A stretch of DNA of 64,000 nucleotides from Fragum whitleyi. Taxonomy: Eukaryota > Mollusca > Bivalvia > Cardiida > Cardiidae. The notes under the pieces are model-generated. The model was given only the letters and a program-made list of their open reading frames with translations, did not search any database and was not told where the DNA came from. The DNA lies in assembly GCA_948146395.1 (NCBI GenBank), contig OX411548.1, positions 61,089,020-61,153,019 on the forward strand, in the 5' to 3' direction. Positions 15,502 through 64,000 of this stretch are shown piece after piece (position 1 is the stretch's first letter; each line of letters begins with the position of its first letter). The position numbers and the translations under genes are program-made.

Positions 15502-15539
15502 CTGAAAAAAAAATGGCATTCTAGCTCTGGTGCCCTGTG

Positions 15540-32726: not shown

Positions 32727-32822
32727 TCAATTGACCTCCTCTATCTGTTTAACACACTCTATCTTCTCTACTTCTAGACCCTGGTTCATATTGGTTACTT
32801 CCTCTATAGCTGCCCGCAATAA
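32727..32822 (-). CDS. 4.1 gene exon: C-terminal domain end with stop
   Basis: Reads [20 protein letters not shown] then [11 protein letters not shown], with TGA at 32727-32729. It corresponds to the family's final A-L-A-x-A-I-x-E-A...V helix and strand. Confidence 0.93.
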   Translation of the reverse strand, partial: LLRAAIEEVTNMNQGLEVEKIECVKQIEEVN

Positions 32823-35800
32823 CTGAAACAAGATGGAAAAGCATTTAGGCAAACTACTTTTGTGACCTTATAATCTAACCTTGACTTTATAAGATGACCT
32901 TGACCTTACTACCAACAGCCATGCTTTGACAAGGAATACACACATGAAATATGAGAACTCTGTTCCACTTGCTTATCAAAAAGTGTGATTGATGTGCAAG
33001 TTTAATTGATGAATAAATAAGACCTTGATACATATCATTGACCTTAGCAGATGACCTTGAACTTGGTCTTGACAGATATTCTTCACAATTAAGAGTTTAT
33101 AAAATATATAGAAAAAGGCTTGGCATTAAATGGAGTATATTTCAACCTTTGTTATTATTAACTAGAAGTTGCTATTAAGTGGAGCTATTTATCCTTTAAA
33201 TCTATCATTTGTGAACAAAGTCAATTGCAATTAAGCAGTCAGTTACTATAACAAGGGTTGCAATTAAGAAGATTCCACTTTATTGAACACAATCAGTTCA
33301 CTTACTGCATCATGATCTAAACCATCATCTCCATCACTTGTCACCGTCACCTTCCTCTCAACACGAGTCTCGATAACACCATCCCTCTCTGTCTTATACT
33401 AAAATGTACAGAAAATTATATTTTTCATAGCTGTCGGGAAAATAATTCGATACTTTCATGTTAAATTTCAACACATCATATGCATCTTCAATTTGAAAAA
33501 CTGGTTTATAAAATATCATTTTTTATACAATAAGAGCTCACATATAAAAAAATGTTTTTGAAGTAGATAAATTACATTTTCATATTAAATTCCATTACCA
33601 AAAACAATGATACTCTTTTTTTAAAATACAAATTACATTCATCTGCACTTCATTTTTTTTAAGATAGTATCCTTAATTAATTTTGTCATTCAATGAATCT
33701 TGATTTTTTTTAAATTCAATCCTCATAATAATTTGGTTGGCAAAAAAACTCTTTTTTTATTATCCTTTGTGTACCATAATTAATATTATTAACATCAACA
33801 TTACATTCTAAATCTTACAATATTTCTACCAAACTATCTTGTCTGTAAAGTATTTTCAAAAATTCTCCAAGTACCTTCAATTAAGCTTGAACATTTGGAT
33901 AAACAATTAAGTCTTAATTTCAAAAATCTACTTTAAGCATTCAAATCACTATTCATAAATCATATATAATTTTATGAATTAGAACAACATTCATGCCATT
34001 CACTAGAAACAATTTCATGCTCAACTTCAAACAAAGCAGCTACAGTAGTTCAACAGTAACTATTATGAATTAATAACAAACAGAAATATGGTTAGATATT
34101 AACTAGATTTGAAAATATTAGTATATAATTATTATATTGCACTCTTAAAAAAATTAAAATGGAAAAAGGGTGTTATTGTCTTTTAAGATAGCCTCTTCAA
34201 GGGGACTGTACAAGACTATTGTAAGTAATCTAGTGATATATAGGCACTGACAATAGTCTTTTCTTACCCCTTGTTTTTATTTGAGTTACATGCCTTGACC
34301 AAAATTGGGTTGGGGGCCCACTGGTAGTTTTGTCCAGTGGTCTTTGTAGGTTTTTTTTTTATTAAAAATGTATATTAACCCTCGTCATGCTGAACCTGGA
34401 ATATACCTTTTTTGACAGGAGGTATAGACAAAGATCAGCCTGCACATAAGTGCAGTCCGATCTTAGTTCATACCACCTGAATTTTATTTTTAAACCAGAA
34501 AGGTGTAATACAATGCATTTCCGTAATCCAATACTCTATCACATTTGGTAACTTCCAGTGCTTTTAGCACTTTGATTTTACATTTATTTAGCAAAGATTT
34601 TTTATTCAGCATGACAAGGGTTAATTCACTTATCGATCAATCTTCAAATAAAAAATACTCTCTTAATGATATTGTCAATACCCGATATTGACAATAAATT
34701 TTTTAGCGCTAATGAAGACTGTTGGTTTCCAAGTTATTTATGTTAATTAAACATTATCGAACACAAAGCACAGTGAAATAATCATCACGCACAAGCACAG
34801 TGTATCACTCAATAAATAGAACAGTCTTGCAGTCATTTTGCCAAGGCAGGGGCAACTATCAATGGGTTTCTAGTTATTCTCACACCAGTACAACCATTAA
34901 TCCTTTCCTAGCCGCAACCTGCTATTCCACATAGGTCTACGATTATCAACCCATTGGTTGGAAACAAAAAATCTGAAAGGATGAGCACCTCTCTGTTCGG
35001 GATCGAACCCAGGGCCTTTTAAATGAGAAGCAAATTTAAACAACCCCTAAAAGATTATAGAAGTAAGGACATAGGCATACCATATTTCCACCAATTATAG
35101 TGCCTTTCCTAATAGTAGTACCCCTACATTGTTATCTAAGACTTCACTTCAGTTGATTGAAAACCCCTTAATTCTAAGATTTTTTTCAGATTTCTTCTTT
35201 AATTTCAGATATTTTAATCTAAACAATCATTTATAATGATTGTTGAAAGGAAATTCACCTCAATTTGAAGGGAAAATGGGCCTAAGAGACATCAAATCAT
35301 CATTTCTTTTTCATCAGGAAATGGATACTAAATAAAGCTCTGTGTCCATGTTTAGTATAACTCCTGGGAGTGTTTATTAAGAGAAATATGGTAACCATAA
35401 TTATTTAACAGAACCATTGGGTTGTTTAAAATGTATTAGTATCACTGCAATATGGTTATATATTTATTTACATAACTTAACAGTCTGCTAGACACTTAAT
35501 CCAGTTTACGATCAACTAGAGGAATACATTAAACATTCATGGAAAATTATATAATTTGTGATTTTGAATGAATTTGAGTGGTATGAGTGCTCTTATTATG
35601 GACTATGAACTGTCATAAAGCTAGTATACAATATTCACACAGGGTAAGCATAAGAATTGTTAGATTTTAATACATCATTATGGAAGAAAGAACAATAAAG
35701 ACAGATCTATAGGAAAAAGTCCAACTAGGCTTGGACATTATTTAATGGCAATGAGGCTTGAGTATTTGGCAGAGAAGATTGAAGTATCAACACATTTTAT

Positions 35801-38800
35801 CCAAATACTTAAAAGAATTCAAACTCAAAGCATTTTATGTATAGGCTACATGACAGAATTTAAGCAGTAGTGTAACCAAAGTGCAACAAAGGTCATTACA
35901 AATAAATCTGCTTGAGACAAGTTATGCATGCAGGCCTCGCAGAGATTAACTCATTAACATGGCAACAAATTTTTACACAGGTCCAAAATAAAGCATTTGC
36001 AAAAGAATGATACCCACAAAAAGGTAACTTCTAGAAAACACACATATATATTGTTTATCAGCTTCAATATCCACAATACAAATTCAATATGACAATAATT
36101 CTTCAATTTTATCTGGAGGACTGATATACTTGATCATGCATTGGTGATTTTTTTTTTCCAAAATCATTTTCAATATCATATCACCATCTATTGGCCGCTT
36201 AAAACAGAAAAATAGTGGGTGCAAACAATTTTTGGAAATTAAAATCCTGAATTTTATCATTTTCTTTGAATGCCTTACATGTAAAAGAACAGTTACCATG
36301 TCTATAAAGGACATAGTGCTCAATTTGCAAATGCTTTCAAATTAGACTTCACAAAATTTGCTCAAATGGTAGGGAGTTAAGGTAGTGGACTTATAATAGT
36401 TCCACAACATTTTGCAACACAATATCATTCACAACTATGAGCAAAGTTTCCTAATAATTTCATAACAAAACCTCAGTCAACATTGTTAATGATCATGAGT
36501 GTGGAAATGTTGCGGAACTATTACGGCCCACTACCATAAAACACTCAAAACACAGCATACCGTTGTTGTATCAATAGTCTGGGATTTCGTGGTGACAGAG
36601 TGGGCACTGATCAGGATGCTATCCTCTTGCTCATAAGGCATACCATCCTTCTCATAAGTGACTTTATGTGTTTTAGTTTCGACTATAGGGATGTTAGAAG
36701 TAGATCGGAGTGTTTCTTCCGTGTCTGGATTAAACTTGTAGGTCTCGGTTTCTACAGTGACTGGCTGAAGTGGGGAGAAAACTTAGTCTTAGCCAGGATA
36801 AAAATCATGAATGGTTATTAGACTTGGTCAGTAATAAGCTTTGTGATGGAAAGTAAAAAATACAAGCAGGTACTCTGACACTTGGCTGCAGTTGCCTGAC
36901 AGAGAAAAAATCAAAGGAAAGGAAGGGACAAAGTTCTTGCAAAAATGTTATTAACCCTCAATGAAATACATTGCTCATTTGCTAGTGCAAACACATGCCA
37001 AGTTTTAAATTGTATGTCCCATTTTGAAAGTTTTATTATGTCTTATGCCACTTTCATCAATACTTTGGTTGCAGCAATGGATACATCTTAACATTGATTC
37101 CTGGTTTATTGAAGGTTTAAAAAGACAATAGGTAAGAAAAACAAGATGTGTTTGTGAAACACGAATGCCCCCGTAACGGCATTTTTTTTCAAAGTTTGAC
37201 CTTGACAGATGACCTTGACCTTGTCACATGACCTTGACTTTGGTACCAGCGGATGCGGATCATTGAGATCTATCATCATGCCAAATATTAGCTTTGTATC
37301 TTGAATAGGCTTGAAGATATTGGCAAGGTTAAGTTTCGGGTTAAGTTTTCAGACAGATGGACAGACAGACGGACGGATGGACGGACGGACAGACAGATGG
37401 ACGGATGGACAGACAGACGGACATGAGCCCCTGATCTCTCGATACGGGGGCATAATAAAATATTTGAAAGAATGCTGGCCTTGGAAATGTGCAGCACTTC
37501 AAAACCTTATTAACTGTAGCAAGACCCTCTGTTCTGAACTATCTATTCATGGTAAACTTGCTTGGTAAAAATCTTTTTAGATTTCAGTTCTTTTAACATC
37601 TTTATTTATGGTGACCATGAACAGATTTTACATTGCATGGGGTGATCACAGAGCTTCAGATGGAGTTTTTTTTTTTAATTTTTAAATTTAAATATTTTAT
37701 TATTCCTTATTTAAGGTGGGACGTTACAGTTTTGGGGAGACAACCCGCCTGGAAAAAAAATCGTGAGGGGGCCTTGTTAAAATCAACTTTATATGAAGTT
37801 GCGAGTGCACAGTGGAAGGCTTTTTTTTCAAACAATCGTAATTTTGTCAACCTACACGCAGGATTGTCCTGAATTCAAAATAATAACGTTCGCAAAACAT
37901 TTCAGAAACATAAGACTGCTAAGAAAGATTCTCTTTCTAAACGTTTGCAAATGCTTTTGCATTCTGAACTTCAGGGTTTGGCAATTGTTACGAGGGACAA
38001 AATGAAATCCGGTCATGCGTTCAATATAACGAATCACACATGATCATCCGAAAAATGGTAGTCTGCATTACCGTGTAAAGTATATCTAATGAGTGTTTCA
38101 CACTTGTGCTTCGTTATTCCAACGAAGTACGGGCGACGTTGATAGAATTATCACAAGCCATGCATTCAGGATGACAAAACGGAGCAAACATTTTTGCTAT
38201 TTATACCCTGCATTGCTCGCATGTGCGTGAGCTAAATGTTTACTTCGCTTTGTTGTCCTGAACGCAGGGCTGTCACGTTCTCTTCATCACCGAAAGGGAA
38301 TGTTTGAGTTCGGGTCATATCGTTGTAAGTATAAAACTATCATATAATGGATGCTTACAAAAGGTAGTCATCTTTCAGTTATTTGAACATTGCTTGAAAA
38401 GGAGAAAACATATGCTTTTTTATTTACAACTTCGGTAAAAACTGATGCGGCATGAGGAATTATATCCAAAAATAATAAGATTTTGCCACTTGGCTGCGAT
38501 TTCTCTCCTTTTCAATTTACTTTTCTGCACTGTTAACCGTCTGTTCGTTTTTCACTATTCTTTTTATAATTTTTTAAAAATGATATGTTACTTTTGCCTA
38601 TAAAGATCCCATTCATTACGTATATAACACGTTGTTAAAACGAAAAAGGAGACAACGTAGACAACCTTTAAAAAATTCATTTCTTCTCTCTAAATTTCCG
38701 TCTCTATTTGATTCCGTTTATGCGTGTTTGTAAGAGTGAAAACGATAATTTGATAACAATTATCAATATTCCATCAATAACTTTGCCAACATTGAATATT

Positions 38801-41800: not shown

Positions 41801-44800
41801 AAATTTTCCAGGCAGCAGAATCGAGAGGAATTAATCAAAGTTGTAAGATTAAATTGTTTCTAAATCAATGTAAAATAAATAGGTTTTAACTAAACCTTCT
41901 GTTGTGATAGCAGTACATCACAGTGCCAAATTTCCGAAAAAGGAGAATTATTATGGAACTATAACCCTTCATATTCACTGTCAATCAAGAATTTTTGTTA
42001 TTTAACCAGAGCGCTGAAATTTTTTTTCATTAGGGGACTTGCTGGAACAATGGCATAAACACCCCTCAAAGAAGATTAAAAGATTCTTCTAATCCCAATA
42101 TTTTTTCTAGTTCTGTTGATATTAGGATCCATATGCCAATACTGGATATGAAGTCCATCTAATGTAATGTGCCATGTTTCACCTAGCTAACACATTTTAT
42201 CAAGGCTAAGCAGTTTTATAAAGTATCCACAATTTTCAAAATCCCAAAACTTGTTGACGGAACACCGTTACAAATCTATAAATACCTACAAGGTGATTGG
42301 CGAATATGTGTCCTTCTCCCAGTAGCTATATATAGATTTGTCCTGTAACATTAGCTTGTGATGTTTGGCCATCATAATGAAAATACAAATTGTGGTGCAG
42401 GGTTTTAGAATGCCATCCCCATAAGTCCCACTTACGGTTTGATAGTCCCTGTGTTTTAGCTATTCTCATTTTTTTACGTAAATATCAAATCTTTCTCTAA
42501 ACAATGTATTTGATGGATTTGTACCTTTGGGGTCAGCTTCAGAAAAGAATTGAAGACTGTTTAAATCAGTCTTCAATTTTTTCCTGAAGTTTGTCCCCAA
42601 AGGACATCAGATAGTTTTGAGAGTCTTAGCTACTTATTTGGGGGTCTCAGACTTGAAAACCCTGCGTCCCTGAAAACCCTGATGATGACTTATCATCACA
42701 AAGAATAGTGCCAATGAGCCATCGGATCCCGGACAGACTGATTAATGAAGTGGAACAAATAAATGATAGAATAAGTGAGTTTGTTTGAATGGAGTTGAAA
42801 GCCACTTTCAACAATTTTTCTGGATCGGCATCTGGAGCATATAACAATGGATTCCTGGTATTTCTCACACCAGTACCACAATAACATTTTTTCCTGCCCT
42901 CCACATGGATCTACCAATATCAACCCATTGGTGAAAGACGAATAGTCCAAAAGAATAAGTGCCACCATAAGGGGTTCAAACCCACAACTACTAGATTGAC
43001 AATCCGACACGCTACCAACTTTGCTATGACGGTGGCATGAAATTAGCAAGTCTCACCACTGAAGATGTAATTGAGGTCCTTGACCGTCTGTCCTCCGTTG
43101 ATTCAAACCCGTCTTGAAGTTTGGGTTTTTTGGCAACCGGTGGTGGCTTTCTTCGGTTTGGATCATTTTCTCCTGCAGACTCGAAGAAAGGCATGGGTTC
43201 CTCGGATTTTGATTTCTTTGTCTGAAGAAAATGCATTTAAAATATAGATTGCTCAGCATTCAACAGTTGTAACTGTTTATAAATATATAGGCAGTTTCAA
43301 CTATTAAGCACTGAGCAGTTGATATAATATTTATAATTACATTACTAGAAATTTATTGCCTTTTTGCAAAGCCAATTAAGATCATTGATTCTTGTCAAGC
43401 TGAACCCGGAATATTCCTGTTTTGACAGGAGGTATAGGCAAAGATCAGTCTGCACAATAGTTCAGTCTGATCTTAGTCTACACCATCTGTTTTTTTGCTT
43501 CACATAGGATTGTGGAGGGACTTGTAATTTTTCAAGAGTAATATTGGCATACAATTTTGTCTTTCAGTTAATTCAGCACTTTGATTTGAGTGTAACTTGG
43601 CCAAAATTTTAATCAAGCATGACAAGGGTTAAGTAATACATCTGGCTTTAAAACCTTGTTTTGAGAGTTTGATCCCTGGCTGGGCCAACTTTCTTCCAAC
43701 ATATGACATTGCCACACAGATCATTTTGTCATTATTTGAGTTTCAAGCAAACACCTTATGTACTACCAAAAATTATCAGATATCACAAAAGACAACATTG
43801 CTTACAACAACCAAAGGCTAAATCAACACTAGGGGTTGTCTCAATCAAAAGAGTCAAGCATAAAATTGTCGTCTATAGATATATAAAATAAATATAATAG
43901 ATAATAATTTTTTAAACATACCACAGATGGTTCATGTAATGGCAAGAATTCCTGTTTTCTGTCTATTGACTTGTAGTCTCCAATCTTCATGTTGTAGGCA
44001 CCTGCTCCTATACCAGCCTGCAAATGTAAAAATTTAACATTACGTACAACAAATTTCTAGAAATTAACAAGTTGGGCTAGTGAAACAGATTTGTCAAAGA
44101 AACAGCATTTTTCAGAAGTATGACCTTTCACTTACCCAGGAGGGTGGAATTCCCATGCCTGACTTGTCCGACAAAGCCTTTTCTACTTAAGGACAAGTAT
44201 ATTTTGGAAGGCAACTTGTCCATGGACAAGTAAATACAATGGCAAGTTTTGGAAAGGTATCAATTAGATCTGATAATGATAATGATAATTTTCCTAACTT
44301 CCATATCAAAGGGTAGAAAACATTGTTTTTAATGAAGAAAATGCAGAGTTTCAGTATTTTCTTCATTAAAAGCAATTTCTGTTGAAATTTATCTATTCAT
44401 TTTCTTTTTGCAGACAACATAATTTTGATACCGGACAAGTAGAAAATAATCTTTAACTTGTCCAAGAGTCTGTATTTTCACACTCCTGACCAACCTTCTA
44501 GATTCAGTTATAGTCACAATTCAAAGAAGAGACCATTTCAAATAGTGCTGTTCAAATTTATTGCAGGAAAAGGTAATTATCTATTATCCAGCAATTTTAA
44601 TTATTTCAAACAGTGCCTAATACAAAATAAAATGAAATCATTTGAACTTAAATAAAACAGAATATCCTACCAAGTTGTTCACATATTCATTGAACCATTT
44701 TGCCCGTTGTAAGTCTGTATCGACAGCATGGTATCGTGGGTCGGTATCGATAAGACACTTTGATGGATGCCATGATGAATAGGCTGTGATGTCTGGGGTG

Positions 44801-47800
44801 TCCCTTAATAATTGCACATAGCCTGCTTTTTTCTGGAAACATAACAGAAATAAGATTAACCCATTACCAGACAACAAATTATTAGACAAGTCCAATCTCA
44901 AAAGACATGTGCATCGCAATATTTACATTTGATTTGAAAAATATTTGCAAAATAGTGATGAAAACATAGTGAGAATAGGAGAAGTAACTTACTATAAGCA
45001 GTTTCTCCTTATGAAAAGTGTTGATAGTAGAACTGTAATAGTATATATCCGCAATATTTCAAACCTTATGAACTTTTACAATGTTGACCAAGGTTTCCTA
45101 ATGAAAGTCATTAGGAAACCTCGGTTGACACTGTTTAAGTTCTATACTTCTTAAACGTTGGGGAACTTTTACAGGTCCACTACCTTAATATGAATTTGAT
45201 CCTGACGTTTTACTCTGCAAATGTTTTCTTCAACTTTCTTTTGAATTTATATTTCAATGAAAGATAGAATTGGTTATTTATGTCAGAATGATTGAACTAT
45301 TTACCAAGTCTTGTAAGTGTTCTTTGAAGTACTCCTCTCTCTTTGCATCGGAGTCAACATTCGTAAACCGTGGATCATGACAGAGATCTTCTTTGACGTC
45401 ATTATATCGAGAATAACTCGTAATGTCTGGGTTATCGCGTAACATTTGTTTAAACTCTTCCTTTTTCTGAAAGAAAAGGAAACATTTCTTAAATACTTTA
45501 TACGGGACTATCAAAATTTATTGGTGGGTTATTGCTCAATAATTTCAAAGTAAAACTACAGAAATTATCAAAATATAATACTCTAGAGTTCTGTTTTCTT
45601 TAATTTCGTGCTACTGGAGGTCATTAAACTGTGACCAGTAAAGGTGATGAATTTGTTTGTTAGAATGGGGCTTTAAACAGTTTTCATCATTATTTGTCAT
45701 ATTGGTGCGGCTGGAGCACCTAACAATGGATTCCTGGTATTTCTCACACCAGTGCTACTAACACATCCTTTCCGAGCCTCCAGCTGCTATCCGTTATAGG
45801 TCTTTGATTTAGTAAAGGTGTTGAAATCAAATTGCCAAGTATTTCATGAACGAGATGACATCCTTTGAGAATTTTTTTTCTTCACATCATGACTTTTTTT
45901 TTCTTGCATAAATCTAGCTTAAAATTTAAAGCAATGTAAAATTCACAATCATACAACAATTTTTAGAGCTAGAGATACAGTAGAGGGGGTATTTTGTATT
46001 TTAGATCAAAGATTGAAATAACAATAGCACAAACTTTATGTTGTTGGTACTCAATGGAATCGTCTCATCAAGGTGTTTCAAATGAGTAACCACAACTCAA
46101 GGTTTCATTGAGAAAACAAGATGTGTTTGTGAAACACGAATGCCCCCGTAACAGCGATCTCTCGATAAGGCAAAGGTTAAGTTTTTGGTTAAGTTTTCGG
46201 ACAGACAGACAGACAGACGGACATGAGTAAAACAATATGCCCCCGATCTCTCGATACGGGGGCATAAAAATATTCTAGACTGGCTTTACCCCCTCTTATC
46301 TGTACCTCAGAAATTCTCACAACCAACTACATAGCCCATCTTCTTGCATAACTTGAAACAAATATTGGTCTCAAAAATCCATTTACCAAATTTTCTATAA
46401 ATTCATCGAACCAGGCCTCCCTTTGTGCATCACTGCCAACAGCTATATATCTTGGGTCATCTTGGATATAATCTTTGACATCGGACCATCTAGACTGGCT
46501 GTCTACAGGCGACTCTTGTAACAAGGCCATAAACTCTGACTTCAACTGTTTGAATAGAAATTTTTAAATCAAAAACTTGTGAACAATCATTCCTAAATTG
46601 ACCATAACCTGATGAATTCAAATTTTGCTTCAAACAAATTAACATCTCTTTTTTTTACAATTCAACCAGGCTTGCTCAAGGTATTCTTAAGGCATATTTT
46701 TCTCAGTTGAAAGCAGGGGTATTTTTAGACTTGTGCAAAAAGATTTAAATGGTTCTACATTAAGGTAGTTGACCCATAATAGTTCCACAATATTTTAGCA
46801 GTCATGGTCTCTTACAGTGTTTACTGAGGATTCCTAATGATTTCATTAGGAAACCTTGGTTAACATTGTGGAAGTTGAAGAGCCCCAAATGTTGCAGAAC
46901 TATTACCAGTCCACTACCTTAATTTAGGCTTCAGCCAAAATCTCTAACTTGAATGCATACAAAATATAGGAAATTTAAAAAAAAAAATTGGACTGACCCT
47001 TTGATTTATTTACTTCTGAACACCCTAAAAGATCACATGAAACTTGTAACTCACCAAATTATTGATATATTCATTAAACCATTCTTCCCGCAGACCCTCA
47101 AGTGGAACAGCTGCAAATCTAGGATCACGGTCAATTTCTTGTCTTGCTTCTGGCCATGTGCTTTGACTGTGAATCTGTGGTGTGTCCTTCAGTAACCGCA
47201 TAAAGTCTTTTTTAAGCTGAAAGGAAATACTCAAGAATTTAAGACCCATTCAAGAAAAGATTTTAGACTGGCTAAATTTCTTAGGGGATGAAGATGACTA
47301 TTCCAAAATGTTTTTGATTGATGCAAAATGTTTAAAAATGGCAGAAAATATTATGGTAAGGGGAAAAACTGCTTTTAGTTTGAAACTTTTCATTTTATAC
47401 AAATTTATTTTTACTGATTTGTTATATTTCCTTACTTTTTATAAGTCCCTAAAAACCAGGACGTATTATGTGATGACCTGTACTTTTCAGAGTCTGGGAA
47501 TCAACCCCGCAAGCATGCAGCATCCATTACTTTATCTGGAGCATAACTCTGTAACCTTATGTATGGTTGACTTGAAACTTGGCAGTTATTTTCCTCTCAT
47601 GTAACAAAATTGGACAGACTAACAGACAGACACCCCTTCACAACCACATCCATATTGAGCTGTTAAAACTAAATCTTGATCACTGCACCCAAACTTGACA
47701 AATAACTTTTGTCTTTTGGGGACAAAACATAGTGGACAATGTAACAAGTAATTTATTCAATGTACACAATGGCTTTAAAGGCAGTTTCCTTCACAGGTGT

Positions 47801-50800
47801 CAAAAAATAAGACTGTAAGGGTATAGGTCTATTGTTTAAAGAAGAATATAAAATATTATCATACCATATCATCTGTGTATTCCTTAAACCATTCTTCTCT
47901 AAGATCATCACTTGGTACAGAACAGTAGCGAGGATCATGTTTTATTTTGTGTTTCACATCGTCCAATTTTGACGTACTAGTAATGTCTGGCGTTTCCCGT
48001 AACAACTGCGTGAAATCTTCCTTGAGCTGAAAAAAAGTTTTTTTTAAATAAGTTTCGCGTCCTTATAAGAAGATATTAGCTTCAGCCACAGCTTAGTCAT
48101 TCTTCTATAAGTTATTAATTGACCAATAAACAGAAAAATTTTACAATGGACCAATTTTAAAGAAGCCACAGACGAAAAAAATGATTTTTCAGTTAACTAA
48201 ACTTTTGGGGAAGAAAATACAATGGACAATGCTGTATTAAACAATTTCATTATTAATGAATATTCTGAGGCCTTTTCTCACAATTTTTTTTTTCCACAAT
48301 TAACTATCTTTTCCAAAGAAGATTCTTGAGGGGCCTAAAATAGTGGAATTTTGTAAAAATATATATATCTTTTAATGAAAAAAATGTTTGAATACTTTTT
48401 CAGTCTTTTTGGAAAGAAAACACTAGCAAGCATTTTGTTCATTGTTCATAGTGTTTTCTTGGGCTTTTTCTTACAAGTAAATTCTTCTCAATTTAAAATG
48501 TTTACCAAAGTAGATTCTTAATGGGGCCTTATACAGAAGAATAGTGTGGAAACAAATTTAGTAATGACCAAATGCAGAAGAGTTGTATGAATGCTTTGGT
48601 TTGTTATATAACTACAAAATTTAAAGCTAACCAAGACTCTTTTTGCTTTAGACACAAAGTACCAATTCAATGCTAGTGTAGTTTTTGAAGTAATATATAC
48701 ATTGCGTACCTTAAAAGGTAAACAGGACAGTCCCTTTGTTGAGATTTAAGAAACTCTATTTGGAATTATGAAGAAAATTCAAACTTCATTAAAAGTCAGC
48801 CAAGTCTTAAGCCAAAATAATCCCAAACCCTGAAATTTGATGCAAACTAAGAGAGGCTCTGCAGAAGTGTAATAGAGCATGCAATAATCCTAATTTAAGA
48901 AAAACATGTATGTCATTTCATTTTTCACTTAGGAAAAAAATCTCAGCAAATTCATTTGACAATTTGAATGCCATGATCATTGTGAGATGTACAACTTAAC
49001 AACTAGAATACAAATGAAAATAATCACCAGTTTAAGAATTGAATTTAAAAATTTGGAGCCCAAAAATGAATGACCTTTAGATGTGATAAGGACATTTGAC
49101 TTACAACAAACAGCTAATTCAAACACCACTCCTGTTTCGAGGGCAATACCTCTGCCAAAAGAACCAACATTTATTGTTGGTTCTAACAAAAACTTAACCT
49201 CAAGTGTAACTTTAACCTATATGATACAGGTCTAATCATAGACAAAGTGATTGGTAGATTGACTGACTAGCACATCTACAAAGTACATACTATATATCAA
49301 AGTATTTTGTGCTTGATGAACTGATCAAACAAATTCTTTGGACAGGAAGTAGCCACAGAGTTTAATCAGAATTTATTTTCCCTGCTATTCATTATTCTTT
49401 CATGAACACTAATATGCATCTCCAAGAACTACCAAAAAATTGCTCATTTGCTTAGAAATAAAGCTTTATGTGACAATAGCTCAGTGCAAAAACAGGTGTT
49501 ACTGCCTATAGGCAGTAACACCACTGTTTTGTGCTGAGCCATTTTTGAGACTCGCAAATCTACAAAATCTCATACACATGCAGAACTAATTAACTAATTG
49601 ATCATCAAATTTCCAAGTTAGAACTAGAACTGTCGCAGAGCGGACTTATATCCCCCACAAGCACTTTGTCAGAATGCAAGTGCTATTATGGCAGGATGTG
49701 TTTGTATCAAATATTGAGGTCATATGCAGCATTTGCATGAAGTTTCGTGATTCTAGGTCGCTTGGTTTTTGAGTTAGAGTCCAGAAATGAAAATTGAACA
49801 AATATTGACTGTGACCTTGACCTTTGACCTATATATCCCAAAAACAATAGGGCACTTCCTTGGATCATAAGCAAAATTTGCATAAAGTTTCATGCTTGTA
49901 GGTCACTTGGTTCTCGAGTTAGAGTCCGGAAACGAAAATTGAACAAAGGCTGACTGTGACCTTGACCTTTGACCTATGTGACCCAAAAATAATAGGGCAC
50001 TTCCTTGGGTCATAAGGAACATTTGCATAGAGTTTCATGCTTTTAGGTCACTTGGTTCTTGAGTTAGAGCCAGAAACGAAAAGGTCTACGGACGGACGGA
50101 TTGACGGACGGATGGACAGAGACAGACATGGTGAAACCAATATACCCCCCTCTACTTTGTAGGTGGGGGGTATAACAACAGAAAGATGGGTTGTCAAATA
50201 GATGGGTTGGTGTTGTGGGTTAAAACAGACTTTAATGTTAGTAAGTGATGTGTGATTTGCATCCATGACTGATGATTGGTCATTCAGAACACAATGGACA
50301 AGTAACCATGCCAACAAGTAACCATGCCAACAAACAAATGTTGACCTTGTTGATCACTGGCCCTTTTTGCATCATTTCTTGTATTCCTGGCAGCTCCCAT
50401 TTTTGGACAGGCTTAGGTTTCTATAAGATAAATAGTTGACCAGTTCAATAACTGGCATATATTTTCTTTTATATTGGATTGTATATAGATGAAGAGTTTA
50501 ATAAATTCTGTATTTTATGAGCACAAATTTTCATTCTATTTATAATTTGACCCAAATTTTTGCGAAAAATCGTCATAAATCTTATAGTTCAAAGTTTTAT
50601 TTTTCCGCAAAACTTATAACGCTGTTTAAAACTGACTTCACAATATATACAATATGACGACAATTTTGCGGTTACAAAATAGCGTTGCTATTCGCTCTGA
50701 GCTCATTTGCATAGTTATTATACTAGTGTAATAACACTCGTGTAATATCAAAAATATTCAATGAGTTTATTTCACTCCCATAACGTAAGTCATATTATAA

Positions 50801-53800
50801 CAATAACTACTTACTTGTTCATTGTAAGCTAAATCATCTGTATATTCCTTAAACCATTCCTCTCTGAGAGCATCATTTGGCACGGCACTATAACGGGGAT
50901 CATGGCTGATTACAGGTTTAACATCATTCAATTTACTTGTACTAGTTATGTCTGGGGTATCACTTAATAACTGTTTGTAGTCTTCCTTAATCTGCAATGA
51001 AATTTACATTATTATCAAAACAAGAGGTTCAAGAGGGACTTTAATGCTCTAAAGGACCTTTTCATATAGTATTTTACCATTGATAATGGCTAGTTACAGG
51101 TTTTAAATATCCTTTATCCCAAAAATTACAGAGATTTCTTTGTAGATTATCAGCTGATTATTTCACTACAGAAACTTTGAAATTACATGTTTAAGAATGA
51201 TAAACTTACTATTTTGATTTATCCCTGCCTTCATTAACATTTGAAGTGGAACACTTAAATAGATCGAATCCAAGAACTTTCACAATTTGTCCATTTTAGG
51301 CCATAAACATATAGAATAATCATTTGTTTTTGTGAAATGTTGATAATTTGTTCAATTAGTAATAAATAAATACTGTATTTGCATAAGTGGCTCCATTATT
51401 TGTTATTGTTGTTCACTAAATGAAATATACATAGATCATAAACTGATGCAAGCAATCATTCCCTGTATATAAATTTAAGAAAACAGCTTCCATACCAAGG
51501 CATATATATATTCATTGAACCATTCTTCTCTTAAGGCCTCTGACGGAACAGCAACAAACCGGGGATCTTTATCAATATTTTGTCGAGCTTCTGGCCATGA
51601 AGATTGGCTGTGAATTTGTGGTGTATCTCGTAATAACCTCATAAAATCTTTTTTTAACTGCAAAAATAAGAAATAGCTGTATCATCAAACAATTACAAAT
51701 ATGCCTGTCTGTTGAGGTCAGTCCCTATAATGAAATTTATTCGCAAGTCAATGTTTTTTAAGCTTTATAAAAGTTAGGAATTATTCAAGCCTAATCTCTT
51801 TTGATCATTTTGTTACAGATTGGTTTTAGAGATATTTAGTCATAGGTTTTCATAAGTTCATCCTCGTACATAAAATTGTTTCAAGTTTTCCTATGGACAA
51901 AATTTAGAAATTGATTATTGCTATTGGAATCAAACAACATATCATCCAGATATAATAATCATTTAGAACAAAAAAGCCCTTTAGAAAGCTATTTTCTTTA
52001 GCAAAAAGTTTTTGATAACAGTTGTTAGAAGAAAATTGTTCCTTAAATAAACATTGTCCCAAAAGCCAGAATTACATAAGGAAACTTCTAATTAACTTTT
52101 CTTCTGCGGTTGTTTCCAGCATTTTCCAGCTGTGCACAAAATTTTAGTGAACAGAATAGACTAAGCTCAGCCTGCACATCTGTGCAGGCTGACCTTAGTC
52201 TACACTACCCTGCCTTCTATCCAATCATTGTGTGGAAAACCTTTACTAGGTTGTTTAAAATGTCCTGAAATAAGTGATTGTTTGAAACAAAATTTAAACT
52301 CAGCAGGGTTAATAATTTTCTACTCACCTGATCTTCCTTCATTTTGTCCATTTTATCTTCCCCTGGTGGCCTCTTTACGAGACCATCTTGACCTAGAGTA
52401 CTTGAGTCAGGATCATAGCCTGTCGTCGCATTTGGATCTCTTACTTGACCTAGGTAATCTTTCTCATCAGTTGGTTTCTTTTTATCCACTGAAATTAAAA
52501 TATTTCTCTAATTAACTCAAAGTAAAAGGTGAAAAAGATGGCAAATTGTCCAAAGATATGCCTATTGAAGTGCTGGATGCCCAGTTATTGCTCATTGGAC
52601 AGTAAAATCACATGCCAAAATTTATCAAATAATTATCAAATTATTATCATAATTTCAAGCCAATAATTATCTTCAAAACTTTCCTCAAGTATGAAATAAA
52701 ATTGTTGTATAATTCTGGTACACTGTATGAACGTATATAAACTCAATTTTTGAGTTAAGAGCAAATGTGTCAGTTTAACAAGGAGTACGCATTTTGAATG
52801 CAATTTGAGAGCCCTCAAATCACTATCAAATAGAATGTTACCAAATTTATTATTTTTGCCAGTTTCTATGATGCAGTATTCTATTGATTTTTTACCTTTG
52901 GATATGTTTCATCATCTCCAAGTCACGATTGATAGCCATTCCAACAGTATTAAATTGTTAAAAAAGCTATTTCTAAAATCAAATTTCAAACCTTTCTCTA
53001 TGTAGAGAATTTTTAATTTCAATAATTTATTTCAAGTTCTAAGAGTATCTTTGAAAAACTTTTCTTACCGAAGAATGCTTACTCTTAACAAATGTTTGAT
53101 TGAGAGATGGAGAGAGTATTTGTTGATATAATGGAGGTATGAAACTAAAAACCTGATCACAATATATGAATATGTGAAGCAATTACTCTCTGCATATCTT
53201 AAAAGTTAATATTTTGGGACAAAAATGTAAAAATATCAAACAAATTTCTTACAGTATTACATTTTGCGGAAGATTACAAAATAGCACCATACTCAAAATT
53301 GTTTTTATTGAACAAGATGTGTTTGTGAAACACGAATGCCCCCGTAACGGCATTTTTTTCAAAGTTTGACCTTGACAGATGACCTTGACCTTGTCACATG
53401 ACCTTGACTTTGGTACCAGTGGATGCAGATCACTGAGATCTATCATCATGTCAAATATTAGCTTTGTATCTTGAATGGGCTTGAAGATATTGGCAAGGTT
53501 AAGTTTTCGGGTTAAGTTTTTGGATGGACAGACAGACGGACATGAGTAAAACAATATGCCCCCGATCTCTCGATACTAGGGCATAAAAATAACACTTATT
53601 TTTCAGGCAATCAGTGTGCACGAAAGTTGCTGGAATCATACAGAATTAAATTAACAATAATTTCACTTTAAATGGCTAGCGGTGACTATTGAGTTCAAAA
53701 TTAGTATCACATAAGTATTGTGATAGTAAAGTTGCTAATGGAATAGTATTGCGATAGTCAGAAAACTATTGCAATACTATCACAATAGTTGTCTTTACAG

Positions 53801-56800
53801 AAAAAATAGATAATAATTAATGTTCAGCATCATACCTTTTATTAGGCAGTAACTATATATTGTTCTTGTAAGATGCTGTTTACCTTGTATACAATAGCGA
53901 GTAAATGATCAAATAAGTTAATTATAGATATTCCCTGAAAAAGAATTGGCTTTGACCTCATTCTCTAATGAAAACATGCAGAAAGGCAGCATTGTAACAT
54001 ATTACTACATTTAGTTCTACTTTCATTTTCATAAATACTATTGTAATCTATCGATAGTCAGAGGAACTATTGCAATATTTATTGACTTGAAAAAATGCTA
54101 TAAACCTATTGCTATTGCAAGGTAAAATATCATGATACAGTGATAGTTTGACCTATTGTTACACCACTATAAATTACAAAGACAGATTTTCTTACTTCCA
54201 TCGAGACTCTTTGATTTATTATGACCCATATTGAGAGATTTTCGTTCAGCAGTTCGCATAATGTGTGGTTCTTCTCTGTCTGCCATCTCAGCCGCTTCAC
54301 GAGCTTGAGCTGCCGTTCTTCCTGAATAGCGGAATTTTGTGTTGAATCTGGGAAACATTGTACTGGAAGGTGGGGCATCTGCATCTTTCAATCTGAAAAT
54401 AAGAAATATTTTGTCTTAACAAAAATTTGTTTAAAACAATTTTCTCAAAAATGCATTGGTAATGGTCAATAGACATCCTTCAGTTATATTGAGGAGGCTG
54501 GAGAACCTAACAATGGATTCCTGGTATTTCTTTCACCAGCACTACCATTACATCCCTTCCTAACCTTCAGTTGCAATCTTCCTGGGTTAACATTTACCAA
54601 CTCATTGGTTGTAGACAAAAGTCTGAAAAGATATATGCAACCACCAAGGATTCAAGGATTGAAGCATATTAATGTAAATGATTTTAAGATATCATTACAG
54701 TAATTTGTGAACAGTATGTCATAGAAGTCATTTGTTCTAAAAAGATGCTTTCTTGTAATACTAACCTGAAGAATGCATGATGTTCTACACACAATTTCCA
54801 TAGACGTTTGGCTAATTTATGATTTTCACATTTAAAACCTATCGTTTTTTCATTGGGGTTGAACTGAAAGAGAAACAGAAATATCATTATGATTAAATAC
54901 GAATAAATGTGAAAAATTCAACCAAATTTTTTTAAAATATAATGCACAATATACTTCTGTCAATTTTTAAACCGCTTACTTTCTCTTCTGGGAATTTCTC
55001 TAAAATTAGAATTTTCCCCTCAAAAATCAATGTTTTAAATGTTACAAGTGTCTCGCATCGGAGTATTTATGTTAACAATCAACGACTTTTGATTATCAGC
55101 TTAATGACTGCTTTTTGAATTTATTTTCTTTGTGTTCTTTTAAACATTTTCAAATGACAATTAATCCTGAAAAGTAGTCTATTAAAAGTTGGTTTAGGAT
55201 TCCAATTGCGTCTAAGAAATGACATACTCAATTTGTAAATTTATAACACATGAAAGACAGCCAAAAAATATTATTTTGTACTTTGACCACAGTTGGTACA
55301 AAATTCTACAGAATAAGCCTCTAGACCAAGATTTCCTCCTATACTTTCATTCTTGGAAGAAGGATCCTGGAAATGCTTTACTAATTTCTAACAAACCGAT
55401 TTCAAAAGCGATCATTAGTTGATTTTTCTCTTCCAGCTAACAACTGGTAATCGATTTTGATTTGAAACTGATTGCCAAACACTACTGAAAAAAAGAAACA
55501 GACTTACCTCCCCTGGGCGGATCTTGATATAAAAATGGTTTCCTTTATACGATAATTTAAGTATCTTGGGCCACATAAAACGATTGATGCGTAGTCTATC
55601 CTTATAAAGAAGCAATCCACTAGCACAGATCCCTAACTGTATGTCCTTGTTCTCAGAGTCCTGAAAAACAGAATCCAAAATCATTTGTCCATAAATTAAT
55701 TCATGAAATGACTTATTGCATTCTAAGAAATTGTCAATAAAGCTCCTTTTCCCATGTTTTCTAAAAGAATGTTCCAAATAAAGATAGTTGTTAGGTCATC
55801 CTTTTGAGGGCTGAATGAGGGCTCTGTACAAAACTACCGTTTTCATAGGTACTTATAGTAGTTTAAGGCTGAACTCTCAAAATACTCAGACCAGGCTTTA
55901 TAAAGATAAACCTTTGTTATGTGCATACTGTAAAAATTCTAATAGAGCCCTGTGCTCTAATAAAACCCCATCCCTTTTTACGTGGTTTTAATAGACCATT
56001 TTTGATGTGATTTTTCAAACTTTTGAAGCCTCTAGTAAAGGCCTATATCCACAAAATCAAGGTCACTAAAATTCAACAGAGGTTTTATGCACCATTTCCT
56101 CAATCAAATATTAAACTTTTGTGCGGATTATGTTTATTTTTGGCCATTTTTCATGATCTTAACATATATCGATGGCTCAGCGTAAATCAGTTGTTACTGC
56201 CTTTATGTTTCTAGGCAATAAAAACTGTTTCGCACTGAGCAATTGAAATATAGCTCAGTCTCTAATAAACACCCATCCCTTTCTAATAAAAATACAATGA
56301 TTCTAATAGAACCCAAGGTTCTACCAGAGCTTTTATGGTAAGTATGTTTCTGTATGCCTTACAACCATGCATATTCTTCACAAGATTTATGTTCAATTGT
56401 AATCATCTCAGTAATAAAGCTTACTTATAACAAAAACTCATTAAATATATTCATTGGTTAATTTATCTATATATATTTCAAAGAGATCAATTTTCTAACT
56501 CACCTTTGTATCATGCATATCAACACCATACAAAGCTAATTTTTTAGCATTTTCTAAGAAATGAGCTTCAGCTACAACTGGAGTCTGTCCTCTGAAAGAG
56601 TAAATATTCCATTAAATGGCAACACATCATGTCTACAAAAGAGATCTAAAATTCGCTAAACTATGTAGGTTTACCTTTGATAAAACACTGGTGGTTCCAT
56701 TGAAATAAACTTAGCTCAGGTCTTACCAAAACAATCTAAGCAGTTTCTGGTTTTAGATTCAAATGTGTAAACAGTATATTTTGACAAGTTCTATATTGGA

Positions 56801-59800
56801 GCTTTTCTGTTGTTAACATTTTGAATTTATTGGTCATGATTTTTAGAAGGAATTAAGAAATTGTTAAAGTTTTCTACGCTCTGGTGTTGAATGCTTGATA
56901 ATGGATGAAAAAAGTAAGTTAGGGGGTATATTTAAATTAAAATGCATTTAGAGTTTTAGTTTTTGCCTTGAATTACACCAGAAATATAACAAACAACAAT
57001 GTCAAGGCTTTAGCAATACCAAGGGTTTTATCTTTTCCTAGCGGAAATTTAACCAACCTGTGATGTTTGTGTAGTTCTAGAATTTTATCGAGAAGTTCTT
57101 GTGTCTGTGCGGGGGCAAAATCAAAGTCATTCAAGTATCCTGTTGGGTTCTCATAATTTGGTTCCCAGTCTCCCAATTCTGCCTGAACAGTGTAGGAACC
57201 CAGCAGAGCACAAGTGACAAATGAACATGGAAGTCTGAAACACAAAATGATCTTGGGTTAATCCATTTCCTGATGAAAAATTCCAAAGATGTTTCCAAAA
57301 GCTGTTTCTGCTTTTGGGGAGTCAAAAAGCTGTATTTTTAATATGATGAGCCACCCTACAGTTGCCATTCACAAGAGTACGCATGTCAATTCTAACAAAT
57401 TCACAATTCGATGGCTTACGCGAAACAGTTGTAACTGCCTATATGGTTATAGGTAGTTACAACTGTTTCGCGCTGAGCTATCACATTGAGCCTCACAAAA
57501 CTATCTTTTCTATAACTTAATCTAACTCACAGCAATCGCAGAGCTACAGAGAGTGAGGTTACTTTTTTTTCTAAAATTCAATTAATTCAACAATACTTAC
57601 ACTAACTCTTGAGTTTTAGGTGTTGTATGAAAATTTCTTACAGATATGATTCAAATAAATACCCATAACAAATTGATCCTTTGACATAAAAATTTGACTT
57701 CCATTATCCTCTCTATGGTACCTTTACCCTTGTCATGCTGAATAAATTTTGGCTAACAATATTCTTTGAAATCAAAAGGCAAAAAGCACTGAAATTACCC
57801 ACTTAAGGTCAATTTTTATTTGAAAAACCAAATCTATTGACAAAACTAGTTTGAAAGCTCCTGCAAACGCAGGAATAGTCCAGGTCCAGCATGACAAGGG
57901 TTAAAACCTATTTTTCTTACATTGATTGGGAAATAAGTTCTTACAACTTAGATTAATCCCTTTTGATTCTGCTTCCTGGACAATTCACCAGTATTTGAGC
58001 CAATAATTTTGTGTGCCTGTGAAAGAACTAAGAACAATAGCCACCCCTGGAAATCAAACTTGGAACCTCTTGATCCTGAAGCCGACTTTCTATCTCTCAA
58101 CCAGTCATCATTGCACTCCCATGGCTCAGTGTGAAACAGTTGTAACTGCCTATAAACATATAGGCAGTTGCAACTGTTTTGCACGGAGCCATCAAATTCT
58201 CATCAATCACGAACCTCTGCAAGTGGACTCGGAAAAAGTTGCTCACCTTCCATTGAAGATATCTACACGTAACTGTAAACATAACTGGTATCTAGTGATG
58301 TCTTCTTTCAATGACATTGGGTCTGGCGGATAAAACTTCACTTGGAATTCAAATACCCATGTTCCTCCTGTAAGTAAAATTATAATGCTTACATTTGAGT
58401 CTGTGCGTGACATTTCCAACAATTTCATTTGTGCGTGATGGACAGCCATTGAGCTGTCTGGACAAATACATGGTGCAAATCGATGGCTTAGCACGAAACA
58501 GTTGTAACTCCCTATACACATATAGGGAGTTACAACTAATTCACGCTTAACCATCGAAATATGATTGATTGACTGAATGGGGTTTACGCCGTTTTTCAAC
58601 ATTATTTCAGTCATATGACAGCGGTTGGAGCACTGAACAATGGATTCCTGGTATTTCTCGCACCAGTACCACCATCACATCCTTTCTTAGCCTCCAGCTG
58701 CTATCCCACATAGGTCTACGATTATCAACCCATTTGTGGTAGACAAATTGTTCCAAAGGATGGAGGCAGCCTTCGGGGTCTGCAAATATGAACAGAAACT
58801 ATAGGCTGGAAGCTACTTATTAAGTGCATAATGAAGACACTGATCAGTCTGTGCAAATGCACAGGCTGATCTTAGTCTTAATGCTGCACACATTGAAATT
58901 GTTGAAAATGTCACTCACAGGTTATTTGTTATTGGCAATTTTCCCCAGGTCTTTATTTGAAATTTTTAAATGAAATAAGATAACCTTTTTGTATCAATTG
59001 ATACTCATGTGCTAAATGATCATGAAAGTGACAAGATTTACTACTGGGAAATCAAAACAGAACACACCGTTTTTCTTATGTTCTGTGGCACAAATCTAAA
59101 TGCATAAAATAATTTTTGTTTCTCTGGTATTTTAATTCTAACAATTTAACAAAGAAACAAACTCTTGATTTGAATCAGTTTTAATTCTGCATTAAAACTA
59201 AAACAGTCATATTGCAGCAGCTAGAGATGTTTATCATGGATTGCTGGGATCTCACACCATTTCTACAATGGCAGATCAAGAATTTCTGTAAAGGGGGTTT
59301 GAACATATAAATTTCAACAGGGTTTTAAGGGACAAAGGGACCTGCAAGTCTGAGACACTCACAAAATATTAGCAAGGACTTGCAAAACTATTTGATGTAA
59401 GTCCGTATAGGACTCTCTGGAGAAAAACTTCAGAAAAGAATTGAGGACTGTTTTCATTTTTTTATTCTGAAGTTGATCCCTAAAAGTACATTTCTGACAC
59501 ATTGTGTAGCTAATTCAGAGAACATTTCAATATTTACACACAAAAATTGATGAAAGCTAAAACGAAATAGTCTACATTTATAGCAGGGACTCAAAAACCG
59601 TTTGAGAGTAACCTTATGAACATAAATACTCAGTCCTTCAACCCCCTTTTTTGACGTACAAAAAAATGGTGATTTGTTTCCCTACTATTACCCAATATCA
59701 ATTCAATTTCCCCTTGACAAAAAAAAATAAGTAGGCCTCGGAGGGAGTTCATTTGAACCCCATGAACGGTTCATGATGATGAACCCCCTCTGAATTTGCC

Positions 59801-62800
59801 ACTGACCCTTCAGCTGCTTATTCCATTTAAGTTTACTATCACAGTGCTCTCAATAAGCGGACGTCGACGTAATGTACGTCCAGAATTTCAGAAATAACGT
59901 CCGGAAAATCAGACCCGGACGTAAAAAAACGTCTGAGATTCAAGAAAAACGTCCTGTAATTTGACCCCGGACGTTTTACGAATTTAGCTAATAAAGTATT
60001 TAAAGTTAGTCCACACGTGCAAAAAATCGATAATCAATGCGAGCTTTATTGCTGACCGTGGCCAAACAAGTCATGTGTAACGTGCGTCGTACATAGACTG
60101 TCGCTATAACAACCAGTCTTTGATTACACAATCTTGTCGGGTTAGCGACGCGCCATTACCGCTTCTGTCATTACCTTTCTTTGTCGGATACAGATTGCGA
60201 GGGTCCTTTGATAGGCCTTTTGAATCAAACGAAATTCAAATCAGGGGAATATTCGTAAAATCAAACGTAATTTATACAGTCCTGACCGATAAAACTTGAA
60301 ATATCGCTTTCTAAAAATCTTAGATTAGATCTACGGATGAATTAGCCGAAGTGAAAAAAAACACTACCGGAAAACATTTCCCAAAGGTCAACCGACTGTC
60401 CTCGTTTATAAACGGCACGCGGGAAAATCCCAATGACGTAATTTAAGTTGTCTGCAACAATATGTCTGAACGAGAGATTTGAAATGACGAAGTTTTCTTG
60501 TCTTCTGTTATATAGATCCAATTCTGCGTAAGTTTAAATAAGTTTACATACAATTGCCAGTACATATAACTGCACACGCTAGAATGTTCGCCACCCTTGG
60601 AACGCGAGGGCGAGAAAAATAAAGCTGCATTAGATTTAATTTCCGAAATATCGTCGGATACCAAAACATTGTAACTAAAATTTGAGGAAGCCAGATTTCC
60701 TATGCCCACCGTGCAAAATACATCTCAAGACCGATTCTAAATAGAAACTCTACATTTTCTTCTATTACTTTCCACAATTTATTTAGATCTAATGAGGTTA
60801 TAAAAGATGATAGATCCAGTGCAACCAAAGTTCGTACCTACAGCTTCAAGTTAAAACTAGAAGTCTTCATACCTTGAAATCATTTTTTTTTAAAGAACTA
60901 GCCAAAATGATAGCCTTTAGTATAAAAAATTAAACTTATTTTTAACAAGAAAACGAGCATTTTCAAAGAGTGCAGGAAAAGGAAGGTGTGTATGCCGGGG
61001 AGGGGGGTAGTTAAAAAAAAAATCCTTACTTCTTAAAAAAATTCCTGAAATTTCAACATGGAATTACAAAAATTCCTGATTTTTGCCCTTATTGAGAGCA
61101 CTGCTATCATACATCCATTTGTGGAAAACAAATCGATGGTTCAGTGTGAAACAGTTGTAACTGCCTATATGTTCATAGGCAGTTACAAGTGTTTCGCGAA
61201 GAGCCATCGAAATGTTGGAAAGGATATTTCAGCAACTGGGAATAAACTCTCGAATTTTTTATCTTAAGATACTTTTTCTTCGAACAAAAATAACACATAC
61301 AATATTTAAGCTACAATTAATACCTGCCAACTGTTTAGAGACTTTCTTTGTGTGATCTAACCAAAACTGAAAGTACAAAATAAATCATGTGATCTCAGCT
61401 GTCAAAGATTTTTAGAACTTTAAAGCATGTTTGATATATAATGCAAGTCCAACAATATTTTCATCTTAAGAAAGATGAAAATATTGTTGGACTTGCATTA
61501 TATATCAAACATGCAACATGAATAATTTTCCCCAACTTTGTAAAAATCAAGAAAAATGCAAGAAGTGAAAGTGCACACTTTCTTATGGAACTTAGTATAA
61601 TATATTCTTTAACAATAGCAACGTTTTGATAAGAGACATGATTATTGATTCATACAATAATCATGTCTCTTATCAAAACGTTGCTATTGTTAAAGAATAT
61701 ATACTGAGTTCCATAAGAAAGTGTGCACTTTCAATTCTTGATTTTTACAAAGTTGGGGAAAATTATGGAGTAAATTTCAAGACCTTTTGAAATTAATAGT
61801 CAAATCAGATTTGAATAAAATATCACATGCTGCAAAAATGCAAACAGAACTTTAATTGTAGAGATTCAACCTCCTAACAACATTTTCTTTGGTAAGAGCT
61901 ATATGTTGACATTGAATTATAGAGTTTTAGAAGCCATTCCAAGCCATTCCCCAAAAAAGTTTTAATCTTTATGCAGACATGATGTGTACGTCAACGTTAG
62001 ACATTGCTACATTGTTAAGCCAGTAACTTGTTGTTGAATGGTGCTATGGCGTTCAATGATATCTCGATTTGCTTTTTAAAAGCCCTACAAAATGATGACC
62101 GTGATTTATATTGGATCATTAATGCTCTGAAACCAATTCTAATGACGTTCTAAATTGACAAGGTTCAATTTTGTTCAACGATATCACATTTATTGGCTGA
62201 CAAACCACGCTGTAGGATCATGCACAATTGTATTGAAGATGCAATTTTATGCTTAGGAAAGCCACAAAGATTCAACTGAATGCATTTTCAGACCAATCAT
62301 TTGTCTAACATGTGATGCACATGCAAAAAAATGCAAAATCAAATGTCTCATTTTAGCAGAAAATTTTTGCTCACCGCACAAAATTTGTTTTCAAAAATCA
62401 TTAGCTAATACTCATGGGGATAGTCATACCACCTTTCATGACGATAGATTGTGTAATTTCAGAGATATTCAAAATTCAAAAGTGCACACTTTCTTTTGGA
62501 ACTAAGTATAATATCTATTATGTACATAAGTGACTTTATTACGAATACTCAAGTTACCATTTCAAGGCCTCAGCAATACTATTGTAAGTAAATTACCTAT
62601 AAATACAATTTTAATATCTCCTCTACATGTATAGATCTTTAATAAGAAGTTTTCTCACCTTTTTCCCAGTTTTGTCCCTGTATGTGAGCCCAAAATAATC
62701 TGTTTCTATGACGTCTAAATGTTTTACAACCTTGTCAAATACACTCTGTCCTGTACAATTTTTCTGTAAAATAGAAAAGAAATGGAAATAAATGCATTTT

Positions 62801-64000: not shown

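Follow-up and report, generated by a model that had tools for sequence, protein, structure and literature searches.

The window analysed here, a stretch of 64,000 nucleotides from the bivalve Fragum whitleyi (contig OX411548.1), carries on its minus strand a gene for the membrane-skeleton linker protein 4.1 in which seven in-frame exons encoding FF domains stand between the FERM and FERM-adjacent (FA) regions and the 4.1 C-terminal domain (CTD). The gene was rebuilt exon by exon from 62763 to 32727, and the 21 exons join into a product of 980 aa, whose domains follow the order FERM, FA, linker, seven FF, linker and CTD. The exon phases are consistent throughout, acceptor AG and donor GT are present at all the junctions, and the single stop ends the model at 32727. 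A preliminary description, made from the letters of the window, had placed the FERM, FA, FF and CTD exons in order on one strand, with the frame kept at every junction and one terminal stop, and all of this was borne out. The two junctions to which it had drawn attention, 52328/51657 and 44671/44017, are exact and of phase 0.

The protein 4.1 gene and its FF exons

The splicing proposed for the gene is drawn from the frame, the splice sites and the orthologues, and the exons would be the following (coordinates, strand, content, basis of the assignment).

62659..62763 (-): e1, FERM N-lobe, with the FERM start outside the window; splice model, Pfam
61324..61366 (-): e2, FERM N-lobe; splice model
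58247..58367 (-): e3, FERM N/M; splice model
57058..57234 (-): e4, FERM M; splice model, PDB match
56504..56591 (-): e5, FERM M/C; splice model, PDB match
55508..55660 (-): e6, FERM C; splice model, PDB match
54766..54863 (-): e7, FERM C; splice model, PDB match
54196..54392 (-): e8, FA region; splice model, Pfam
52328..52488 (-): e9, linker, alignable to FF-less unionid 4.1; splice model, alignment
51496..51657 (-): e10, FF1, type A, phase 0-0; splice model, Pfam, tree
50815..50991 (-): e11, FF2, type B, phase 0-0; splice model, Pfam, tree
50346..50420 (-): probable cassette exon, 25 aa, WELPG motif, phase 0-0; tblastn with orthologues
47865..48026 (-): e12, FF3, type B, first of the conserved core B-A-C-D-E; splice model, Pfam, tree
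47055..47216 (-): e13, FF4, type A; splice model, Pfam, tree
46387..46545 (-): e14, FF5, type C; splice model, Pfam, tree
45305..45466 (-): e15, FF6, type D; splice model, Pfam, tree
44671..44832 (-): e16, FF7, type E; splice model, Pfam, tree
43922..44017 (-): e17, linker, SIDRK motif, kept in unionid 4.1; splice model, alignment
43057..43221 (-): e18, proline-rich linker, kept in unionid 4.1; splice model, alignment
36561..36764 (-): e19, CTD; splice model, Pfam
33306..33398 (-): e20, CTD; splice model, Pfam
32727..32822 (-): e21, end of the CTD and stop; splice model, Pfam

Neither the open frames that precede e1 nor tblastn with full-length orthologues revealed the first FERM exon, and the 5' end of the gene, with this exon and the N-terminus, is presumably located past base 64000. 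With the first exon outside the window, the FERM_N match begins at profile position 15.

The joined 980 aa were searched by Pfam hmmscan with the curated cut-offs. FF (PF01846) was matched in seven stretches (E 4.2e-85), and FERM_C (E 2.6e-28), FERM_M (E 1e-22), FERM_N (E 1.9e-15) and FA (E 3.3e-10) are all above their cut-offs as well, together with 4_1_CTD (PF05902; E 1.5e-9, 38.4 bits against a cut-off of 25). The claimed number of seven FF domains holds for every exon taken alone, since the single FF exons score 38.7 to 58.3 bits against the FF cut-off of 22 bits and all seven pass. At what we take to be the two aromatic positions of the FF unit, the first residue is F or Y and the second is F in all seven units. 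When e4 to e8 were compared with the PDB, EPB41L3 (E 1.4e-81) and 4.1R (E 9.1e-71) were matched. No FF unit beyond the seven was found among the open frames of at least 20 aa in the six frames of the window (next best E 0.95). The Pfam list of the product, taken to E 1, contains no spectrin-actin-binding (SAB) region (PF04382), and in the 980 aa there is no Pfam match to a WW domain, the N-terminus being outside the window, or to a GTPase-like or RhoGAP domain.

In addition, a probable further exon of the gene, at 50420-50346 between FF2 and FF3, was indicated when the stretch 32000-64000 was searched by tblastn with orthologues (Mercenaria P0003, E 1.6e-4). The exon list of the preliminary description therefore stands for its 21 exons, while this probable exon of 25 aa had been overlooked. 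It is flanked by AG and GT in phase 0-0, with a weak donor, GTCAAC. Of the Mercenaria isoforms, P0002 has the 25-aa piece and P0001 lacks it, which points to a cassette exon; Mya P0004 and the FF-less unionid P0039 have counterparts.

Then, could the FF exons belong to a separate nested gene, or could the join be an assembly artefact, so that no fused protein is made? The Ruditapes gene is annotated as two models, which would suit such an explanation. However, frame and splice sites are intact across the 21 exons, the annotation of Mercenaria, Mya, Dreissena and Mactra contains fused proteins, and FERM is linked to one FF even in the first of the two Ruditapes models. Two genes are consequently considered highly improbable, and the single fused gene is retained in what follows. 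A separate nested FF gene was also looked for directly and rejected, as all the FF units of the window belong to the 4.1 model and none lies outside it, and inspection by eye of the open frames from 32 to 64 kb revealed no exon of another gene.

Some other features of the window are listed below.

30049..31803 (+): 585-aa open frame with DDE_1, HTH_Tnp_Tc5 and HTH_psq matches, a transposase that we take to be pogo/Tigger-like, about 0.9 kb past the stop of the 4.1 gene and on the strand opposite to it
14834..15520 (-): 229-aa frame that contains a Tctex-1 domain (E 5.5e-23) and a stretch rich in histidine
3781..3863 (+): tRNA-Arg with anticodon TCT (ARAGORN)
8690-8777, 40496-40584, 40868-40956, 57419-57482, 58121-58198 and 58477-58557: at least six copies of a palindromic hairpin, each about 64-89 bases long, which gives nearly the same peptide from both strands and has the look of a MITE, a small transposon with inverted repeats

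Orthologues and the order of the array

The FF-bearing protein 4.1 is not confined to Fragum whitleyi, and six bivalve species hold it. When a protein set was searched with the FF region, 38 proteins were obtained at E <=0.001 among 7,556 candidates, and nine of them combine FERM with FF, from Mercenaria mercenaria, Mya arenaria, Dreissena polymorpha, Mactra antiquata and Ruditapes philippinarum. The preliminary description had proposed a fused gene and a proteome search for FERM together with FF as a way of checking it; the fusion is supported by this occurrence of both within one annotated protein in five other bivalve species. The remaining matches are two Dreissena proteins without FERM and 27 proteins with FF and WW, which are TCERG1- or PRP40C-like where named. 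In Ruditapes, the first model ends after one FF and the second, P0151, carries three FF and the CTD, and both are listed on a contig of identical size.

The combination of 4.1 and FF had also been described as unfamiliar. It is in fact already present in the public annotation of the five bivalves, under the names ‘band 4.1-like’, ‘trichohyalin-like’ and ‘uncharacterized’ and with FF assigned automatically, but among the papers listed in searches of the open PMC literature, outside which subscription papers and preprints lie, no title points to an FF-bearing protein 4.1 or mucolipin. The proteins and their automatic FF assignments were already public; new here is that the combination is recognised, together with the order of the FF units and the connection to channel genes. 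As for the name ‘trichohyalin-like’, Mactra P0008 has at residues 510-552, preceding the FF array, a lysine/glutamate-rich stretch predicted as a single long helix, with similar stretches in other orthologues, and this is perhaps the reason for that one name. Such a stretch was not found by tblastn in 32000-64000 of the window.

Among the 120 listed of 7,997 FERM/FA matches, nine have FF and are the same bivalve proteins as above, eight are FF-less unionid proteins (one from Potamilus and seven from Sinanodonta), and 103 are other FF-less rows, many of the vertebrate ones with SAB; the 120 include no oyster, scallop or marine mussel. The local FF profile gave no match to E 10 in the unionid proteins P0039, P0040 and P0046. 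Outside the array, the Fragum whitleyi protein is alignable to the FF-less P0039, over FA and the linker before the array (E 8e-29) and again after the array (E 2e-56). WALPG and SIDRK, the motifs on either side of the FF core, are found in P0039 as well. The SAB region (PF04382) is likewise absent from P0039, and therefore SAB is not defining for 4.1 members outside vertebrates. In the FERM tree, Fragum whitleyi is sister to (Mya, Dreissena) plus (Mactra, (Mercenaria, Ruditapes)), with supports of 96/93 and 100/99, and the two unionids branch outside the FF-bearing bivalves. We infer that the window comes from an imparidentian (heterodont) bivalve and that the FF array arose once the unionids had split off, unless these lost it.

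The number of FF domains is seven in Fragum whitleyi, nine in Mercenaria, eight in Mya, seven in Dreissena and five in Mactra, while Ruditapes has one and three in its two models. Five types of FF unit, A to E, were defined on a tree of 55 units, with supports of 97/99 for A, 94/93 for B, 90/74 for C, 98/95 for D and 98/99 for E; types B and C are not recovered as groups in a tree of 78 units. The arrays are written below with a stroke at the position of the WALPG cassette in Fragum whitleyi and Mya, and of a long linker at that place in Dreissena.

Fragum whitleyi: A B / B A C D E
Mercenaria: B A C D B A C D E
Mya: A A A / B A C D E
Dreissena: A A / B A C D E
Mactra: B A C D E

All five complete arrays end in B-A-C-D-E. 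Based on this shared ending, and on the flanking motifs WALPG and SIDRK, which also occur in unionid 4.1, the ancestral array was most likely B-A-C-D-E, inserted between the WALPG and SIDRK exons, and the upstream group a later addition. As to the duplicate units, dN is 0.16 and dS 1.92 between FF2 and FF3, and dN is 0.14 between FF1 and FF4, for which dS is saturated and not computable. The FF duplicates are old and under constraint, with purifying selection between duplicate units. A recent duplication of FF exons along with their introns was considered and rejected, as the similarity, 75% for FF1/FF4 and 76% for FF2/FF3, stops within a few bases of the exons. Self-complementary intron stretches occur near the FF exons at 44322-44376, 45067-45189, 46759-46923, 49475-49543 and 52157-52202; the second and third of these, which flank FF5 and FF6, are alike at 76-80%.

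All seven FF exons are in phase 0-0, and so are the exons following them; consequently, each could be gained, lost or skipped in frame. Given this, and with the FF number varying from 5 to 9 across the complete arrays, the FF domains might bind nothing in particular, the array being a length-adjustable spacer in which the number of copies drifts as exons are duplicated; the low dN between duplicates would be compatible with it too, as the fold alone would impose constraint. However, the order of the five types is fixed across lineages, and we regard a mere spacer as rather unlikely. An array that docks partners, as described in the last section, is preferred.

Origin of the FF units and the Dreissena channel-like proteins

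The best PDB matches of the FF array are TCERG1 (E 5.7e-22 and 7e-22), with PRPF40A next at 0.014, in agreement with the ‘splicing/transcription-type’ module recognised from the letters. When the Fragum whitleyi FF profile was applied to a gastropod TCERG1 (Plakobranchus), FF3 scored 74.5 bits and FF5 35.2 bits, and the other four scored below 20. The trees place the bivalve FF units adjacent to TCERG1 FF3 and FF5, and all the bivalve FF units form one clade in the 55-unit tree (95/88), which is not recovered in the 78-unit tree. In AU tests, whose clades were named only after the trees had been inspected, neither FF3 as sister (p 0.268) nor FF5 as sister (p 0.264) was rejected, nor was one clade of all bivalve FF units (p 0.149).

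FF domains of the same kind are also found outside protein 4.1. Three Dreissena proteins, P0010, P0152 and P0153, carry FF domains ahead of a mucolipin-like channel part (PF08016), and P0009 and P0150 align with them; among the named matches, such mucolipin-like FF proteins come from Dreissena only. Like 4.1-FF they bear tandem FF units on a membrane protein, whereas the PF08016 channel part stands where 4.1-FF has FERM and CTD. P0009 and P0010 together contribute 11 FF units to the 78-unit tree, where these group with FF2 of Dreissena 4.1 (99/96), next to FF3 of Mya (99/98), and their grouping with TCERG1 FF3 instead was rejected (p-AU 0.010, for a group named after tree inspection). A second transfer of FF, into channel-like genes, is likely. 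The mucolipin-like FF genes are listed on a contig of size 106,873,626 and the 4.1 cluster P0007 on one of 152,547,682, which suggests that the FF channel genes and 4.1 are on different chromosomes in Dreissena, although this is weakened by P0006, a partial Dreissena 4.1 record on a contig of yet another size. With the same listed contig size, P0010, P0152, P0153, P0009 and P0150 are perhaps a local gene family.

A possible course of events can be put together as follows. A single exon similar to TCERG1 FF3, with both ends in phase 0, would have been inserted into a 4.1 intron, and the inserted exon would have been duplicated in tandem prior to the split of the sampled species. Later, copies would have moved upstream inside 4.1 and, in Dreissena, into the mucolipin-like channel genes. 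Hence a phase 0-0 FF exon from a TCERG1-like gene may have been a portable cassette in heterodonts, which made a rod in 4.1 with five fixed types and then gave TRPML-type channels of Dreissena the same docking rod; for this proposal, we find the arguments evenly balanced.

The FF array as a putative docking rod

The predicted models examined are of two relatives, the Mactra orthologue (AlphaFold2) and a Dreissena channel, and not of the Fragum whitleyi protein. The Mactra model is weak overall (mean pLDDT 52.6, pTM 0.26), and 19 of the 29 ten-residue blocks that make up its FF part (residues 581-870) are at pLDDT >=75. Single helices, 627-652, 751-776 and 805-830, run through three of the four FF/FF joints, where the blocks are at 73-89; at the second joint there is a 16-residue spacer and not one helix, with the lowest block at pLDDT 48. 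Outside its FF part, the Dreissena channel model, based on 5 sequences, is poor (mean 40.3); the single helices 122-144 and 173-198 pass across both joints of its three FF units, which were read by eye while Pfam gives two stretches. For the two models together, one helix passes through five of the six FF/FF joints. In a fold search of the PDB with the Mactra model, the best 50 of 113 matches at E <=0.001 are only FERM entries. As all the matches listed are FERM, the assignment of the FF fold is based on sequence.

Based on these models, it is likely that the FF domains form one stiff helical rod, which docks several short peptide motifs under the membrane. FERM, with FA, would keep the protein at the membrane and the CTD would act, both as in other 4.1 proteins. 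In vertebrate 4.1, the SAB region lies in the middle, where the FF array stands here, and the array would occupy its place. With most adjacent FF units sharing one long helix, the array would be at once a spacer and a multivalent docking rod. That the rod has several docking faces is suggested by the models, and a docking role would be expected by analogy with other FF domains.

Several known systems can be compared with this arrangement. The protein 4.1 family (EPB41, EPB41L1-3, coracle) shares the order FERM, FA and 4_1_CTD with Fragum whitleyi 4.1-FF, whose FERM/FA part has 63% identity to two vertebrate 4.1 proteins; however, many vertebrate rows have SAB (PF04382), whereas 4.1-FF has seven FF mid-protein and no SAB detected. 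TCERG1 (CA150) and other WW/FF proteins have the nearest FF sequences and tandem FF arrays as well, but 4.1-FF has no WW match, its FF units of 53-59 aa abut almost without linkers, its charge is opposite to that of TCERG1 FF3 and FF5, and its array is fused to a membrane-skeleton protein. A RhoGAP domain is part of the architecture of p190RhoGAP (ARHGAP35/ARHGAP5). According to the review PMC6523970, p190RhoGAP also has a GTPase-like domain, is cytoplasmic and carries four FF domains, and the p190RhoGAPs are called the only cytoplasmic FF proteins there; in contrast, 4.1-FF has no GTPase or GAP match, and its score for the RHG35-type FF (PF23083) is 21.9 against a cut-off of 27 bits. FF domains are otherwise known from proteins of splicing, transcription and Rho regulation, and in PMC2613882 FF proteins are split into the p190-related and the WW/FF families.

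The FF units of Fragum whitleyi have charges of 0 to -7, with FF7 neutral, and the whole array has -25. In five TCERG1 proteins, FF3 has +1 to +2 and FF5 +3 to +5, and the other units are mixed, with FF2, FF4 and FF6 near neutral. The acidic FF1 of Prp40 favours basic peptides, as stated in PMC2613882; from this preference and the negative charge of the array, basic or neutral partners in the cytoplasm would be expected, rather than the phosphorylated polymerase tail, charge being only a property of the sequence.

Alternatively, the array may be a nuclear-type module that binds phosphorylated or acidic-aromatic peptides like TCERG1, with 4.1-FF acting in nuclear splicing or transcription. Some vertebrate 4.1 isoforms are reported to work in the nucleus. 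The closest FF relatives are those of TCERG1, with which PMC8625317 deals, and according to PMC2613882 the FF domains of CA150 (TCERG1), FBP11 and Prp40 recognise the phosphorylated polymerase tail. On the other hand, the charge of the array is opposite to that of TCERG1 FF3 and FF5, and FF domains of the same type are borne by channel-like membrane proteins in Dreissena. A nuclear role is therefore considered distinctly unlikely; the charge and the reuse on channel-like proteins would give no reason to expect one, and the docking rod under the membrane is the preferred reading.

The 4.1-FF proteins make up a third FF family, placed in a core membrane-skeleton protein and retained in six bivalve species. 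They also offer a case of exon shuffling in which the likely donor relatives, the FF-less recipient and the likely second transfer to channel-like genes can be set side by side, and they make it testable, in accessible edible and invasive clams, what occupies the middle of a 4.1 protein lacking SAB. If the FF exon was indeed a portable cassette, two protein families, a third and a fourth, would be added to those with FF arrays, and in both the array would face the cytoplasm at a membrane.
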